Assembly: GCA_003242675.1 (NCBI GenBank)
Contig: QGVE01000094.1
Span: 1 to 11,013, forward strand
Source: Bacillota bacterium
Lineage (GTDB): Bacteria > Bacillota_E > Symbiobacteriia > Symbiobacteriales > Symbiobacteriaceae
Reading direction: 5' to 3'
DNA length: 11,013 nt
The notes beneath the pieces are model-generated. The model saw only the letters and a program-made list of their open reading frames with translations. It had not been told where the DNA came from and made no database searches. Below are positions 1 through 8,544 of this stretch, piece by piece. The translations under genes were made by a program, and so were the position numbers. Positions within the stretch are counted from its first letter, which is position 1. Each line of letters starts with the position of its first letter.

Positions 1-153
1 CTCCCGCGTGGTTTTTTCCGCTGTGTGCACGTCAAGCGGTTGCGACAGCCGCGCCGCGCCCCCGCACGGGGCTCTGCGACGCCCACGCAGGCCTTGCCGG
101 AGTGCCTGTCCGCGAGGGCAGCGGCACGGTCGAGGAGTGGCTAGCTCCACAGG
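1..153. other. left edge, no supportable gene
   Basis: I see no convincing coding sequence here. All frames open at the left edge give low-complexity Arg/Pro/Ala-rich translations without a recognisable motif. A rightward frame starting at base 3 stays open until about 230, and its middle looks slightly more protein-like, but it runs straight through the palindrome at 154-202, so I do not call it. A T-run at 11-16 and a GCCCC/GGGGC inverted repeat at 58-72 are the only local structures. Confidence 0.4.
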
Positions 154-202
154 CGCGCAAAACCTGCACTCCGCCCGGCGCGGCGGGTGCAGGTTTTGCG
201 CG
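154..202. repeat. long inverted repeat, copy 1 of composite repeat
   Basis: A 49-base hairpin. The outer arms CGCGCAAAACCTGCAC (154-169) and their exact complement (187-202) give 16 perfect pairs. After a one-base bulge, CCGCC (171-175) pairs with GGCGG (182-186), leaving a 6-base loop. The element is not followed by a T-run on either strand, so it is not a standard terminator. A second 49-base copy lies at 326-374. REP/BIME-like intergenic palindromes look like this, but the family is not one I recognise. Confidence 0.85.
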
Positions 203-228
203 TCATAAGCGCCCAAGTCGGCTATCTT

Positions 229-247
229 GATACCCCAGTGGGGTATC
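229..247. repeat. ACCCC/GGGGT palindrome, copy 1
   Basis: The arms GATACCCCA and TGGGGTATC flank a single central base at 238, giving a 9-bp-per-arm palindrome. Its TACCCC core starts exactly 28 bases after the end of the hairpin at 154-202. The same 28-base gap separates the second hairpin from the second palindrome at 403-416. It could be a protein-binding dyad or part of a mobile palindromic repeat. A one-base loop argues against a simple RNA hairpin. Confidence 0.7.
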
Positions 248-325
248 TTTGCGGCTCCTTGCCCGCCTGAACCTCACAGTTCGCGGTCCTCGACCCCCGA
301 TTCCAGCCCTCGCGACAGGGGTGAA

Positions 326-374
326 CGCGCAAAATCTGCACCTGCCTTCTGCGGGCAGGTGCAGATTTTGCGCG
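326..374. repeat. long inverted repeat, copy 2 of composite repeat
   Basis: A 49-base hairpin with 21 perfect pairs (326-346 with 354-374) around a 7-base loop. It shares the outer arm CGCGCAAAAYCTGCAC with the copy at 154-202. Where copy 1 has a C-G pair (163/193), this copy has T-A (335/365): a double change that keeps the pairing. The inner stem also differs in sequence (CTGCC/GGCAG here, CCGCC/GGCGG in copy 1) while remaining paired. Confidence 0.88.
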
Positions 375-402
375 CAACCGACCGTTCCAGGGGGCATCAA
401 CC

Positions 403-416
403 TACCCCATGGGGTA
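403..416. repeat. ACCCC/GGGGT palindrome, copy 2
   Basis: A perfect 14-bp palindrome, TACCCCATGGGGTA, lying 28 bases after the second long hairpin. Together with 229-247 it forms the second module of the composite repeat. It sits 45 bases past the thiolase stop in the direction of that gene, so a role in 3'-end formation cannot be excluded. Confidence 0.7.
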
Positions 417-432
417 CTTCCCGGACCCCATA

Positions 433-459
433 CCCCGCCCGGCGCCCCATGGGGCGGGG
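433..459 (-). terminator. possible 3' hairpin of the thiolase gene
   Basis: Immediately after the leftward thiolase stop codon, CCCCGCCC (433-440) can pair with GGGCGGGG (452-459). Alternatively CGCCCCATGGGGCG (443-456) folds as a perfect 14-bp palindrome. Neither is followed by a T-run on the minus strand. The inner palindrome repeats the CCCCA/TGGGG theme seen at 229-247 and 403-416, so it may belong to that repeat rather than act as a terminator. Confidence 0.3.
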
Positions 460-460
460 G

Positions 461-1645
461 TCAGTCTCCCACCCGCTCCACCACCATGGCGATCCCCTGG
501 CCGCCGCCGATGCAGAGCGTCGCCAGGCCGTAGCGGCTCTTCCGCCTCTTCATCTCGTAGAGCAGTGTGACCAGGATGCGCGTGCCGGAGGCCCCGATCG
601 GATGGCCCAGCGCGATCGCCCCGCCGTTCACGTTCACCTTCGCCATGTCGAACTGGAGCTCCCGCGCCACCGCCAGCGCCTGCGCGGCAAAGGCCTCGTT
701 GGCCTCGATGAGGTCGATCTGATCGAGCGTGAGGCCGGCCCTGGCCAGGGCCTTGCGGGTCGCCGGCACCGGTCCCATGCCCATGATGCGCGGCTCCACC
801 CCGGCCGAGGCGTAGGCGCGGATCACCGCCATCGGCGTGAGGCCCAGTTCCCGCGCCTTGTCGGCGGACATGACCAGCACCGCCGCCGCGCCGTCGTTGA
901 TGCCCGAGGCGTTGCCGGCCGTGACGGTGCCGTCGGGCTTGAAGGCGGGGCGCAGCTTGGCCAGGGCCTCGACCGTGGTGCCGAAGCGGGGGAACTCGTC
1001 GGTGTCGAACACGACCTCGCTCTTGCGGGTGCGCACGGTGACCGGCACGATCTCGTCCTTGAAGCGGCCGGACTTGATGGCGGCCTCGGCCTTCGCCTGG
1101 GAGGCCGCCGCGAAGGCATCCTGATCCTCCCGGGTGATGCCGTACTCCGCGGCGATGTTCTCGGCCGTGATGCCCATGTGGCAGTCCTCGAAAGCGCACC
1201 AGAGGCCGTCCTTGATCATCGTGTCGATGAGCTCGCCGTGGCCCATGCGGTAGCCCGACCGGGCCTGGGTGAGGGCGTAGGGCGCCATCGACATGTTCTC
1301 CTGGCCGCCGGCGACGACGATGTCCGCGTCGCCCGCGAGGATCGCCTGCGCCGCCAGGGCCACGGTCTTCAGGCCGGAACCGCAGACCTTGTTGATGGTC
1401 GTCGCGGGCACGGTCGCCGGGATGCCAGCCCTGAGGGCCGCCTGGCGGGCCGGGTTCTGGCCCTGCGCGGCCGTCAGGACCTGGCCCATCAGCACCTCGT
1501 CCACCATCTCCGGGTTGACGCCGGCGCGGTCCAGCACCGCGCGGATGACCGCCGCGCCGAGCTCGTGGGCCGGCACGGTGCTCAGCGTGCCGTTGAAGGA
1601 TCCGATGGCTGTGCGGGCTGCGGAGACGATGACCGCTTCACGCAC
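461..1645 (-). CDS. acetyl-CoA C-acetyltransferase (thiolase)
   Basis: This cytoplasmic thiolase, 394 residues, condenses two acetyl-CoA to acetoacetyl-CoA or performs the reverse cleavage. The length matches biosynthetic-type thiolases (about 390). All family landmarks are visible: the acylated nucleophile Cys88 in NKVCGSGLK, the NEAFAAQ motif, His348 in [14 protein letters not shown], and the second catalytic Cys378 in CIGGGQG. I chose the GTG at 1643-1645 because AAGGGGGG lies 8 bases upstream and the protein then begins [11 protein letters not shown], the usual thiolase N-terminus. The frame is open for 53 more codons upstream, but that part is Gly/Pro-rich and unlike the family. The gene stands alone: the aldo/keto reductase gene upstream on the same strand ends 349 bases away, and no partner for butyrate, PHB or ketone metabolism is present. 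The acyl-chain preference cannot be read from the sequence. Confidence 0.96.
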
Positions 1646-1994
1646 CGAGACTGCCCCCCTTGAAGGTACTCGTTGGCCTCCTCCACCGCCCCCGGCGCCG
1701 CCGGGGCAGGCGCCGCTGCGGCCGGTTGCCGCATCCCGGCCGAGTGCCGGGAGCGGACAGAACCCGTGACCAGTGAGCGTTCCGCGGAACTCCTTACCTT
1801 TCATGTTACCCGTTAGATGAAATTGAGGCTACCCCAAAATGTCTGAAGGAACCTGTCGCGGATGTGCCAGCCCGGCTGTTGCCGGGACTCAGCGGAGGTT
1901 CGATCGCCTCTCCTTCAGCGCGCCAGGCCCTCCGGTCCCCCGCTGCGGGGGGTCCGGAGGGCCGAAGAGCCTCGGGCGCTGTCGGAGGAGCACA
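1646..1994. other. intergenic region upstream of the thiolase
   Basis: I see no gene here. The thiolase side contains two short GC hairpins, 1690-1706 (CCCCGGC/GCCGGGG, 3-base loop) and 1734-1752 (TCCCGGC/GCCGGGA, 5-base loop), within the likely 5' leader of the leftward thiolase mRNA. There is a perfect 12-bp palindrome GTTCCGCGGAAC at 1779-1790 and an inverted repeat TTTCAT-N12-ATGAAA at 1799-1822, which could be operator-like. No convincing -35/-10 pair was found. The aldo/keto reductase end holds the hairpin listed at 1926-1963. Confidence 0.5.
1926..1963 (-). terminator. hairpin after the aldo/keto reductase gene
   Basis: GGCCCTCCGG (1926-1935) pairs perfectly with CCGGAGGGCC (1954-1963). 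The inner CCCCCGC/GCGGGGG extends the stem to about 17 pairs with one bulge and a very short loop. It begins 31 bases after the leftward stop codon. No T-run follows on the minus strand, so intrinsic termination is plausible but not shown. It may instead stabilise the 3' end. Confidence 0.45.
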
Positions 1995-3172
<1,178 letters not shown>

Positions 3173-3907
3173 ATGCTCGTGACCGTGCTCGGCCGGTACT
3201 CTCCCTACGCGCCGGCGGGCGGCGCCTGCCCCGGGTTTCTCGTCCAGGCCGCGGGCGTCGCCCTCATGCTCGACGGCGGCCCCGGCACCGTCGCCCGCCT
3301 GCAGATGCAGGTCGCCGCGGCGGACCTGACCACCGTGCTGGTGTCCCACCTGCACCACGACCACATCGCGGACCTGCACTGCCTCCAGTACCTCATCGCC
3401 GACCAGGCGCCCGGGCGGGAGCCGCTGCCCATCTACGCGCCCGACCTGGCCACGCCTGACCGCCGCTGGCTGGAGCCCAGCAGTTTCGGTGCCAGGTGGA
3501 TTCGGCTCCTCCCCCTGCCGGTGGACGAGGGGATCACCTTCGGGCCGCTGCGGGTGACCTTCGCCCGCACGGATCACCCCGAACCGTGCTGGGCGATGCG
3601 CATCACCGACGGGCAGCGCACCCTCGTGTACACCGCCGACACCGGCGCCGGCATCGACCTGGCCCCCTTCGCCCGCGGGGCCGACCTGCTGATCGCGGAA
3701 TCCACCTTCGTCGCCGCCAACGGGCAGAACCGCACGGGGCACATGACCGCGGGCGAGGCCGCCGAACTGGCCCGGCGCGCCGGCGTGAAGCGGCTCCTGC
3801 TGACCCACTTCCTGCCGTCGACGCCGATCGCCGAGGCCGAGGCGGAGGCGCGGGCCGTCTTCCCGGCCGCCGAGGCGGCGGTGGAGATGCGGACCTACCT
3901 GGTGTGA
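3173..3907 (+). CDS. metallo-beta-lactamase-fold hydrolase (YhfI/RNase Z-like)
   Basis: A soluble 244-residue metallo-beta-lactamase-fold protein, the same length class as Bacillus YhfI. The zinc-binding signature SHLHHDH gives His59, His61, Asp63 and His64. Further ligands are His135 (TDHPEP), Asp156 (YTADTG) and His212 (LLTHF), so two metals can be bound. The segment GHMTAGEAAELARRAGV is typical of the RNase Z/phosphodiesterase branch, but I see no flexible arm for tRNA binding, so I do not call it RNase Z itself. The ATG at 3173 is preceded by GGGAGTGA about 6 bases upstream. It is separated from padR downstream by 283 bases containing a separate promoter, so it is probably monocistronic. 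The physiological substrate is unknown; a phosphodiester or lactone hydrolase role is inferred from the fold. Confidence 0.92.
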   Translation: MLVTVLGRYSPYAPAGGACPGFLVQAAGVALMLDGGPGTVARLQMQVAAADLTTVLVSHLHHDHIADLHCLQYLIADQAPGREPLPIYAPDLATPDRRWLEPSSFGARWIRLLPLPVDEGITFGPLRVTFARTDHPEPCWAMRITDGQRTLVYTADTGAGIDLAPFARGADLLIAESTFVAANGQNRTGHMTAGEAAELARRAGVKRLLLTHFLPSTPIAEAEAEARAVFPAAEAAVEMRTYLV

Positions 3908-3960
3908 CGGTCGAACCGCCGGTGGCCGGGCGCGGCGCGGGACTGGGACGAGCGCTCTCC

Positions 3961-3989
3961 TTGACGCCCTCCACCATAACAGCCATAAT
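3961..3989 (+). promoter_or_regulatory. sigma-A-type promoter of the padR gene
   Basis: TTGACG (3961-3966) and CATAAT (3984-3989) are separated by exactly 17 bases, each matching five of six consensus bases. They sit in a local AT-rich island within very GC-rich DNA, downstream of the hydrolase stop and pointing toward padR. The expected transcription start, near 3996, coincides with the palindromes at 3997-4013. This is the best promoter in the window. Confidence 0.78.
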
Positions 3990-3996
3990 TTAGGTG

Positions 3997-4013
3997 AGAT
4001 GTTCATCTAGATG
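3997..4013. promoter_or_regulatory. nested palindromic operator at the padR transcription start
   Basis: AGATGTTCATCTAGATG contains two overlapping dyads: AGATG-TT-CATCT (3997-4008) and the perfect 10-bp palindrome CATCTAGATG (4004-4013). Three half-sites therefore alternate in orientation directly downstream of the -10 box. Occupancy would block initiation, which suggests autorepression by the PadR-type protein; PadR proteins commonly repress their own genes. Which protein binds is inferred. Confidence 0.55.
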
Positions 4014-4190
4014 CACGCGGTTAACGCCCGTGCTGGTTCCCCGGCGTACCGGACCCTCCCCCGGAGCGAGGACGCCGGTGGCCCGGCGCAGCCCGGCGCC
4101 AGGGCACACAGCGATTCCACGCGTCCCCCACTGCCGCGCAAGGCGCCGCGGCGGCCACCACCATGCGAAGGAAGGGCGAGTGACGCAGCC
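4014..4190 (+). other. long 5' leader of padR
   Basis: From the predicted transcription start near 3996 to the preferred GTG at 4191 lies a leader of about 195 bases. The padR frame stays open across it from an ATG at 4011, but the translation (Pro/Arg/Ala-rich, no motif, no ribosome binding site) does not look like protein. A near-perfect tandem 10-mer GCCCGGCGC(A/C) occupies 4081-4100. I see no known riboswitch. Confidence 0.4.
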
Positions 4191-4604
4191 GTGGATCACA
4201 GACACCACCATCCCCATCACCACCCCCGTGATGGCCGGGGACGCGGCCGCCGGTGCGGCATGGGCCACATGTACCGGTTCGTCGAGCCCGTCGTGCTCTA
4301 TGCCCTGAAGCGCAAGGGCGAGAGCCACGGCTACGACCTGGCCGGCGTCGTGCAGGAGTGTGCCCTGACGGACGCCGAAATCGAGCGGGCCTCGCTCTAC
4401 CGGACCCTGAAGCAGCTGGAGGCCGGCGGCTACGTGACCTCCCGCTGGGAGGCAGACGAAAGCGGCCCCGCCCGCCGCCTCTACCGCCTGACCGAGAGCG
4501 GGGAGCGGTACCTGCAGGAGTGGGTGGACAGGCTGGACCGGCTGGCGCAGTCGATGGCGCGCTTCGTGCAGGAGGTGCGCAGCCTGGGGTCTGGCGGCGA
4601 CTAG
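4191..4604 (+). CDS. PadR-family transcriptional regulator with His/Cys-rich N-terminus
   Basis: A 137-residue DNA-binding repressor of the PadR winged-helix family. The core begins at MYRFVEPVVLYALKRKG, continues with SHGYDL, then the recognition region SLYRTLKQLEAGGYVTSRW and the wing ARRLYRLTESGERYL, and ends in a dimerisation helix (about residues 105-130). Ahead of the core lies an unusual basic tail with seven His in its first ten residues, then Arg/Gly repeats and CGMGH. I prefer the GTG at 4191, with AAGGAAGGG 14 bases upstream (rather far); ATG codons at 4260 and 4269 would give the bare core but have no ribosome binding site. Its promoter and a likely self-operator lie at 3961-4013. 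No transporter or other typical PadR target is adjacent. The effector is unknown; metal binding by the tail is a hypothesis. Confidence 0.88.
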   Translation: MDHRHHHPHHHPRDGRGRGRRCGMGHMYRFVEPVVLYALKRKGESHGYDLAGVVQECALTDAEIERASLYRTLKQLEAGGYVTSRWEADESGPARRLYRLTESGERYLQEWVDRLDRLAQSMARFVQEVRSLGSGGD

Positions 4605-4617
4605 CGCTCGGGAAAGA

Positions 4618-4659
4618 AGGGCGCCGGCGCCCGGCAGTACAGAAACGAGCCGGCGCCCT
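4618..4659 (+). terminator. hairpin immediately after padR
   Basis: AGGGCGCCGGC (4618-4628) pairs perfectly with GCCGGCGCCCT (4649-4659) around a 20-base loop, starting 14 bases after the padR stop codon. No T-run follows. It may be a first, weaker 3' structure ahead of the clear terminator at 4772-4802. Confidence 0.4.
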
Positions 4660-4771
4660 CGTGGAGCCCGGGTGGAGTGCCGTGCCCGGCGCACACCTGG
4701 AGGGGACCCACCAGATTGCAGACGCACCTCAAAGAGGGCCGACTCCAAAGCAGATTGCGGACGTAGCGAAA

Positions 4772-4802
4772 GGGCAGGGATCCCCACGCGGGATCCCTGC
4801 CC
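4772..4802 (+). terminator. rho-independent terminator between convergent genes
   Basis: A perfect 13-bp stem, GGGCAGGGATCCC (4772-4784) with its complement (4790-4802), around the 5-base loop CACGC. On the plus strand TTTTCTT follows within a few bases (4807-4813), giving a textbook terminator for padR. On the minus strand the stem is followed by TTTCGCT, so it may also serve the coiled-coil gene that ends at 4861. Confidence 0.8.
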
Positions 4803-4860
4803 GATGTTTTCTTGGCAGCCCCGTAACCTTCCACCTCACGGCTGTGCCGCCGTCCCGGGC

Positions 4861-5934
4861 TCAGCGCAGGCCGGCCCGGATCGTCAGCCGGCCGTCGCTG
4901 AGCTGCACGCCGGTCAGCGTGAGCGGCGAAACCCATGCGCTCACGTCGATGTCCAGGAGCCCGTCGGCCACGATCTGGGCGATGATCGCCTCGGGCACCC
5001 GGAACTCGCGCACCTGCAGGAGAGACGGCTCGAACCGCAGCTTGCCGTCGGGCAGCACGCGCAGGCCGCCGCTGATCTCCACCGGCACGTCGGCGAACAC
5101 GCCGGAGAGCACGAACGCCTCCTCTTCCCCCACCAGATCCACCCGCAGGTCGGCCAGCTCGTCGTAGTCGCCGAGGTACGCGTTGAGCCGCTCCTCGGTG
5201 ATGACGACCGTCGCCCCGGGCGGGAACAGGGAGAAGCGGATGTCGTCGGGCTTGAGCCCCGCCGTGCCCAGCTCCTGGAGGGCCTGACCGAGGGCGCCCA
5301 GGACGGGCAGGGCGCTCTGCTGCCAGTCGGCCTCCACCGCGGCCAGGGCCTTCTCCACGTCGGCCCGCTCCTCGCCGAGGCTCGCCAGGATGGCCTCCTT
5401 CTCCGCTACGGCCGCCTCCAGCTCCGCCACCTGGGCCTGCTGCTCGGCCCGCAGCCGGTCGGCCGCGGCCCGCGCCTCCGCGAGCCGCTCCGCCTGGGCC
5501 GCCAGCGCCACCTGCGCGTTCCGCAGCTCACGCGCCAGGCGGGCGTCGTAGGCCATGATCTGCTTCAGGGCATCGAGCCGCCAGAGGAAGTCGGGGAGCG
5601 ACCGGGCGCTGAACAGCAGCAGCCAGGGGCCGCGGTTCCCCTGCTCTCGGTAGTACCGCAGGCGCCGGCCGTACTGCTCCTTGCGCGCGGCCAGCTCATC
5701 TTCCAGCCGGGCCAGGTCCGCCAAGGCCTTCTCCTCCTCGGCCGCGACCTCGCGAAGGCGCGCCTCCAGGTCGGCCAGGGCGCTGCGCGCCTCCTCCAGC
5801 CGGCGGTTGAGCATGAACAGCTCCTGCAGCACCGCCTCGCGGTCGGGCGGGGCGGCGCCGGCCGGCCGCAGGACCGGGCCCGCCAGGAGCAGCACCATGA
5901 GGCAGAGCAGGCTCCAACGACGCGCTCTCCTCAT
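4861..5934 (-). CDS. secreted coiled-coil protein (PcsB/CwlO-like N-terminus) with C-terminal beta-rich domain
   Basis: A 357-residue exported protein of unknown function. Residues 1-28 form a signal peptide (basic start, Leu-rich core, AGA-A cleavage region). Residues 30-205 are a heptad-rich, Ala/Glu/Leu/Arg coiled coil broken at 103-128 by WLLLFSARSLPDFLWRLDAL, a segment typical of the PcsB/CwlO/EnvC-like helical domain of peptidoglycan hydrolase proteins and their regulators. Residues 230-357 are different: predicted strands, VVITEERLNAYL and LPDGKLRFEPSLLQV, resembling YpmS/DUF2993-type lipid-binding-like domains. No NlpC/P60, CHAP or M23 catalytic motif is present, so it is more likely a scaffold or regulator than a hydrolase. 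The ATG at 5932-5934 has AGGAG 7 bases upstream; an in-frame TTG at 5961 lacks one. It converges with padR. Envelope location is well supported, function is not. Confidence 0.82.
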   Translation of the reverse strand: MRRARRWSLLCLMVLLLAGPVLRPAGAAPPDREAVLQELFMLNRRLEEARSALADLEARLREVAAEEEKALADLARLEDELAARKEQYGRRLRYYREQGNRGPWLLLFSARSLPDFLWRLDALKQIMAYDARLARELRNAQVALAAQAERLAEARAAADRLRAEQQAQVAELEAAVAEKEAILASLGEERADVEKALAAVEADWQQSALPVLGALGQALQELGTAGLKPDDIRFSLFPPGATVVITEERLNAYLGDYDELADLRVDLVGEEEAFVLSGVFADVPVEISGGLRVLPDGKLRFEPSLLQVREFRVPEAIIAQIVADGLLDIDVSAWVSPLTLTGVQLSDGRLTIRAGLR

Positions 5935-6025
5935 ACGCCCCTCTCCTCTCGCCCGCGGCAACGTGCGCTCAGTTGTCTATACTACGGCCGCTCGGCCCTC
6001 TCCTGCACGGGCCCCGGGCGCGCCG

Positions 6026-6057
6026 CGGGGCGCTGCGCCCGGGGGCGCAGCGCCCCG
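6026..6057 (-). terminator. strong GC hairpin after the radical SAM gene
   Basis: GGGGCGCTGCGCCC (6027-6040) pairs with GGGCGCAGCGCCCC (6043-6056), and C6026-G6057 extends it, giving about 13 usable pairs with a tight loop. It begins 17 bases past the leftward stop codon of the radical SAM gene. No T-run follows, so it is terminator-like by position and stability only. The rest of the 140-base gap, down to 5935, should hold the promoter of the coiled-coil gene; TAGTAT near 5980 is a candidate -10 with a poor -35. Confidence 0.45.
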
Positions 6058-6074
6058 TCCCGCGCGTCGGTCGC

Positions 6075-8362: not shown

Positions 8363-8386
8363 TGACCAGATGTGCACATCCGGTCA
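8363..8386. promoter_or_regulatory. 24-bp palindrome, likely TetR operator
   Basis: A 24-bp dyad with 11 of 12 base pairs symmetric (mismatch only at 8368/8381). Its centre is GATGTGCACATC (8369-8380) and its ends are TGACC/GGTCA. It is centred at 8374/8375, about 115 bases upstream of the tetR start and outside any gene. TetR proteins bind such long dyads and typically repress their own operons, so this is the natural operator for the tetR-radical SAM pair. Confidence 0.72.
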
Positions 8387-8510: not shown

Positions 8511-8544
8511 GGCGGGCCTGCGCCCCTCCGGACGCAGGCCCGCC
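8511..8544 (-). terminator. hairpin after the tartrate/malate dehydrogenase gene
   Basis: GGCGGGCCTGCG (8511-8522) and CGCAGGCCCGCC (8533-8544) form 12 perfect pairs with a 10-base loop, beginning 11 bases past the leftward stop codon. No T-run follows on the minus strand. Like the hairpins at 1926-1963 and 6026-6057, it marks the end of a leftward unit. Confidence 0.5.

Follow-up and report, generated by a model that had tools for sequence, protein, structure and literature searches.

Two long hairpins with a common outer arm downstream of a thiolase gene in Symbiobacterium-like DNA

Two long hairpins that share an outer arm, CGCGCAAAAYCTGCAC, lie 172 bases apart at positions 154-202 and 326-374 of the window (the whole stretch of DNA analysed here, 11,013 bases of high G+C), just as a preliminary description had claimed. 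They occupy an apparently non-coding gap that runs from the stop of a thiolase gene to the window's left end. With somewhat less than even confidence, we read the pair as duplicated symmetric gene-end hairpins that would act from either side to terminate transcripts or stabilise their ends, and we lean against the modular REP/BIME-like family earlier put forward as an interpretation of the pair.

Structure and setting of the hairpin pair

The features of the gap and its borders are as follows.

1..17, + strand: CTCCCGCGTGG followed by TTTTTT, a sequence reading of the left edge
154..202, no strand assigned: hairpin 1, arms CGCGCAAAACCTGCAC / GTGCAGGTTTTGCGCG, fold -41.4 kcal/mol, z -7.18
203..230, no strand assigned: gap 1, 28 bases, likeness to gap 2 not above chance
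229..247, no strand assigned: palindrome 1, GATACCCCAGTGGGGTATC, 19 bases, ATACCCC-N3-GGGGTAT with TAC-N9-GTA inside
326..374, no strand assigned: hairpin 2, arms CGCGCAAAATCTGCACCTGCC / GGCAGGTGCAGATTTTGCGCG, fold -42.5 kcal/mol, z -10.17
375..402, no strand assigned: gap 2, 28 bases
403..416, no strand assigned: palindrome 2, TACCCCATGGGGTA, 14 bases, TAC-N8-GTA
418..462, - strand: folded stretch right past the thiolase stop, -23.0 kcal/mol without shuffle control, containing the palindrome CGCCCCATGGGGCG at 443-456
461..1804, - strand: thiolase open frame, stop codon 461-463, start codon not fixed

Pfam matches were obtained for all nine window frames chosen: thiolase, aldo/keto reductase, metallo-beta-lactamase fold, PadR, PcsB-like coiled-coil, radical SAM/SPASM, TetR, isocitrate/tartrate dehydrogenase and nuclease. 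Among 120 proteins listed, the two nearest to the dehydrogenase are one named from Symbiobacterium thermophilum (90% identity) and one named from S. terraclitae (85%); it is by this single protein that the source is placed as a Symbiobacterium relative. The stretch 461-1666 matches Thiolase_N with 370 bits and Thiolase_C with 184 bits. The hairpins lie 86 and 258 nt past the thiolase stop codon, into which the folded stretch at 418-462 extends by two bases. Open frames do traverse the gap that holds them; the five frames scanned within 1-270 gave no Pfam match, and a translated reading of 249-530 yielded one candidate with no match at E up to 10. Rfam returned no gathering-level match anywhere in the window, and five sub-threshold matches in 1-470, to snoRNA and microRNA families of eukaryotes, were dismissed as hairpin look-alikes; the best of them had E 0.0025 and 25.3 bits where the cut-off is 35. 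From its letters, the left edge at 1-17 may be what the window end has left of a convergent gene's intrinsic terminator, namely its right arm and U-run. Across the window, GTAG occurs 59 times against 30 expected.

Folded as RNA from the + strand, both hairpins are more stable than every one of their 200 shuffles (0/200 as good for each). The stem of hairpin 2 has 21-22 perfect pairs around a loop of 5-7 bases, and that of hairpin 1 consists of 16 outer pairs, one bulged base and 5 inner pairs. With one mismatch allowed, the arms measure 18 bases in hairpin 1 and 22 in hairpin 2, whereas no arm exceeded 15 when the whole 11,013-base window was dinucleotide-shuffled 20 times. The string GCGCAAAAYCTGCAC occurs exactly four times in the window, always inside these two hairpins, with two further places appearing at three mismatches. 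The 16-base outer arms of the two hairpins agree at 15 of 16 positions, and at the single differing position (Y) the pair is C:G in hairpin 1 and T:A in hairpin 2, a compensated change. The inner stems are unlike in sequence, yet pair in both.

Each hairpin is, in addition, an inverted repeat of the other (22 nt, 91%), as would befit the palindromic terminal repeats of one small MITE spanning 154-374 (221 bases). We consider such a single element very unlikely: no target-site duplication was seen by eye in the flanks, and the equally spaced palindromes would fall one inside and one outside it.

The description of a TACCCC/GGGGTA palindrome 28 bases past each hairpin holds when the count runs from TACCCC; the coordinates first given for the second palindrome (403-416) are right, and those for the first (231-245) fall short of its full 19 bases, 229-247. 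As had been noted, the gaps are poorly conserved (7/26 identity over 203-228; gapped alignment P 0.95). The order of parts, the 28-base distances and the 172-base period are kept; palindrome 2 is one base shorter at its centre. At an offset of +172, identity is 35/49 across the hairpin and 11/19 across the palindrome, and outside them 26/78 after the palindrome and 15/49 before the hairpin. Gapped local alignments, with P values from 1000 shuffles, gave P 0.17 after the palindrome and 0.70 before the hairpin; gap, palindrome and following sequence aligned jointly gave P 0.002, with the palindrome within the aligned part. The 15-base form TACCCCANTGGGGTA occurs without mismatch in the window only at the first palindrome, and with three mismatches allowed at least one match turned up in 35 of 200 shuffles. 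A third palindrome, with core CCCCATGGGG, at 443-456 had been overlooked in the preliminary description.

Hairpins at gene ends

In the reading that we favour, both 49-base elements would be RNA hairpins that work in either direction past the thiolase gene, terminator-like or stabilising 3' ends. On both strands they follow one design of A-tract, G+C-rich inner stem and T-tract (AAAAYCTGCAC...GTGCAGRTTTT); transcripts would run through them and may end there. A single copying event inside this gap, or conversion between copies, would have given the common outer arm, while the inner stems and spacers would have drifted. The TACCCC/GGGGTA palindromes would be separate double-stranded sites, the first fitting a CsoR-type operator.

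Long G+C-rich hairpins at gene ends recur in the window. A scan for arms of at least 12 bases found them no more than 60 nt past the stop in five of the nine Pfam-matched genes, at distances of 31 nt for the aldo/keto reductase, 13 for PadR, 58 for the PcsB-like gene, 9 for the radical SAM gene and 11 for the dehydrogenase; such hairpins are therefore ordinary in this window. Against this, the other four ends (thiolase, metallo-beta-lactamase, TetR and nuclease) have no arm of at least 12 bases within 60 nt, and the thiolase stop is already followed by a folded stretch of its own, the pair standing 86 and 258 nt off. Long G+C-rich hairpins lacking T-runs were also seen shortly 3' of genes at 1926-1963, 6018-6065 and 8511-8544; gene ends of this genome may often carry such U-less hairpins. 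Two hairpins lie where the PadR and PcsB-like genes converge (4604-4861), and that at 4772-4802, with AAA before and GATGTTTTCTT after, resembles a bidirectional terminator.

Both members of the pair form a stable G+C-rich stem-loop past a gene (-41 to -43 kcal/mol), and the AAAA and TTTT flanking the G+C-rich stem suit termination from either side. The last 12 arm bases hold four T in hairpins 1 and 2 (ATTTT or GTTTT) and none to two in the other five gene-end hairpins. In their G+C stem, their A-tract and T-tract on both strands and their place in a gene-end gap, the hairpins are like bidirectional intrinsic terminators; they differ in being two copies of nearly one arm sequence and in their short T-tract, only four T, themselves paired inside an outer GCGC. 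A terminator scan that needs at least five T in eight called neither hairpin. Three further points count against the gene-end reading: the 15/16 arm identity exceeds the conservation that a terminator needs, equal 28-base gaps devoid of sequence similarity are not well explained by simple tandem duplication, and one of the two outside matches described below (that in an Anaerolineae MAG) sits within an apparent dispersed repeat.

Matches in other genomes and the dispersed-repeat alternative

Alternatively, the hairpins could belong to a palindromic repeat of the REP/MITE kind, dispersed in this Symbiobacterium species or strain and by chance present twice in one gap, which we regard as possible though doubtful. 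Conservation of the outer arms in two copies that have unlike flanks, together with a paired change, would be expected of such a repeat, and a location past a gene suits REPs as described in an excerpt of PMC3733652. According to the same excerpt, most REPs, not all, carry at one end an unpaired GTAG or CGTC tag, and their length is 20-40 bp. No GTAG adjoins either hairpin, the nearest being at 402-405 on the - strand and overlapping palindrome 2; a CGTC (201-204) ends hairpin 1 but not hairpin 2, so no tag is common to both. The hairpins thus resemble REP/BIME elements mobilised with a RAYT (TnpA-REP) in their apparent intergenic site, their palindromy and their presence in more than one copy, but differ in the lack of GTAG and of a common CGTC, in their 49 bases compared with the 20-40 bp of that excerpt (PMC3733652), and in the window's proteins, none of the nine scanned being a transposase.

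The exact pattern GCAAAAYCTGCAC-N{5,35}-GTGCAGRTTTTGC was found in two stretches, one in a Myxococcales MAG (locus L001) and one in an Anaerolineae MAG (L002), of a genome collection not shown to include Symbiobacterium, and in none of the viral contigs. So few stretches, in unrelated phyla, speak against a dispersed family. Three background sets gave chance expectations of 0.0, 0.3 and 2.0 exact matches in 257 Gb, estimates that assume uniform base composition and are good to an order of magnitude only. The first set comprised 25 of the 30 loci L003-L032 (L004, L005, L006, L007 and L030 were dropped as duplicates or holders of a match), the second all 10 Y1_Tnp loci, and the third all 8 viral loci, a set biased upward because the hairpin pattern had itself retrieved 7 of the 8; the same formula on all 52 loci, matches included, gives about 2.2. 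Two matches would exceed chance on the two less biased sets. Among plasmids, blastn at E up to 10 returned 12 records, none covering more than 80% of the query and the longest match spanning 14%. Weak matches, 12 and 2 in number and with a best E of 0.85, came from a BLAST of window positions 140-260 against the two matched genomes; none of those listed lies at either hairpin.

The Myxococcales hairpin stands between two same-strand frames, 2974-3408 and 3522-4667 of its locus. Its arms have 16 bases in common with hairpin 2, beyond the 13 searched (longest exact stretch 18 bases), and are nearer in sequence to the window's than those of the Anaerolineae match. These shared 16-base arms favour the repeat reading and leave room for kinship. 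On the other side, the hairpin is a single copy in its genome, a looser pattern was found in 1 of 282 genomes of the phylum, namely its own, and the count of single arms at no more than one mismatch was 12 there against 7 for controls.

The Anaerolineae hairpin, 3' of a frame ending at 3752 of its locus, has richer surroundings. Single arms with up to one mismatch number 63 in its genome against 31 control matches, and the exact 13-base arm occurs at seven places, five of which adjoin a CATTTCGGCGG-type stretch. At these seven places the partner arm has 0 (the match itself), 2, 3, 3, 3, 5 and 5 mismatches, with 0, 1, 12, 14, 16, 224 and 270 of 300 shuffles as good; a partner arm with 2-3 mismatches is thus present at four of the six places besides the match. 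In L003, L005, L009, L013 and L015, TGCAAAATCTGCAC (AGCAAAATCTGCAC in L013) adjoins the CATTTCGGCGG-type stretch, and at the match a second G+C palindrome (CCCGCC...GGCGGG) lies a few bases from the hairpin. With five adjoining stretches and these partner arms, the match is no isolated accident; the exact-arm places resemble copies of a palindromic repeat dispersed in that genome, which lends the repeat reading some support, as do the Y1 transposase matches there. That family has five matches in each of the two matched genomes; those in the Anaerolineae genome, of Y1 type (IS200/REP), are L033, L035, L037, L040 and L042. Set against this, a slightly looser pattern was found in 1 of the 61 genomes comprising this one and its relatives, itself, and is absent from the other 60. 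The Anaerolineae repeat shares with the window a 13-base core and a general plan, and differs in inner stem, neighbouring sequence and spacing; kinship is therefore not established.

A looser pattern returned five viral stretches, L044/L047 and L045/L048 being the same stretch twice; all five were set aside, their arms pairing imperfectly even over the searched bases (C form against T form). Of the four stretches that another looser pattern gave, two were once more L045 and L048. In L051, a looser-pattern stretch, ATCTGCACC recurs close by. A provirus-linked hairpin at 1338-1393 of L052 has arms AAAATCTGCACC / GGTGCAGATTTT between runs of A and T and the same core as the window's arm; it lies 206 nt past a queA-like frame, in a terminator-like setting. 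Both this hairpin and the place of the Myxococcales one between two frames count in favour of the gene-end reading.

Among the papers listed for Symbiobacterium on repeats and palindromes, repetitive intergenic DNA or terminators, none plainly concerns such an element, and of the papers containing any of the four 13-base arm strings, none is about repeats as judged by its title.

Palindromes and fixed spacing

The palindromes could instead be CsoR-family operators for a gene beyond the left end, with the hairpins as attenuators or insulators between them, a regulatory array that we think unlikely. In an excerpt of PMC3902906, the streptomycete CsoR type-2 consensus is ATATACCCCTNAGGGGTATAT, most conserved at positions 3-8 and 14-19, and a TAC-X9-GTA motif is found at a number of CsoR sites. 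ATACCCC-N3-GGGGTAT within 229-247 matches the conserved type-2 positions and, with TACCCC-N3-GGGGTA and TAC-X9-GTA, palindrome 1 is like the Streptomyces lividans operators of that excerpt (PMC3902906). It alone in the pair has TAC-X9-GTA round its G-tracts: palindrome 2 is one base too short, with TAC-X8-GTA. In the - strand sense, the GGGAG of the left edge might serve as a ribosome-binding site rather than as half a terminator, in keeping with a gene beyond that end. The sites lie more than 200 bases from the window's left end, however, and the nine proteins scanned include no CsoR-family protein. Since the scan of 1-2000 found no promoter-like site and no copper gene is among the nine, the resemblance of palindrome 1 to a CsoR operator is a lead and no assignment, and any regulator binding there is a prediction from sequence.

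Palindrome 2 is more likely a double-stranded site than an RNA hairpin, because its 14 bases leave little room for a loop as RNA. In a fold of 315-425, its ACCCC pairs with a GGGGU upstream of hairpin 2. Elsewhere in the window, a palindrome at 8363-8386 (TGACCAGATGTGCACATCCGGTCA, 12-base arms, one mismatch) lies in the first, 5'-terminal part of the TetR-family frame, ahead of the TetR_N domain (residues 75-121); it is a likely operator and hints that the true TetR start codon lies further in.

A constant 28-base gap of unrelated sequence is accounted for by none of the four readings, whether gene-end hairpins, dispersed repeat, single element or regulatory array. A further reading has a long hairpin and a CsoR-like operator moving at fixed spacing as one module, a composite repeat belonging to this Symbiobacterium lineage that would spread regulator sites and terminators at once; the Anaerolineae repeat, a hairpin with a G+C palindrome beside it, would then be a far relative of like plan. 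We judge this distinctly improbable.

If a count across the genome showed a family, the pair would represent a REP-like element that lacks the usual tags and is joined to a binding site, and would be worth study. If it is merely a local duplication, as the favoured gene-end reading has it, the pair would belong to the ordinary gene-end anatomy of a G+C-rich bacterium.
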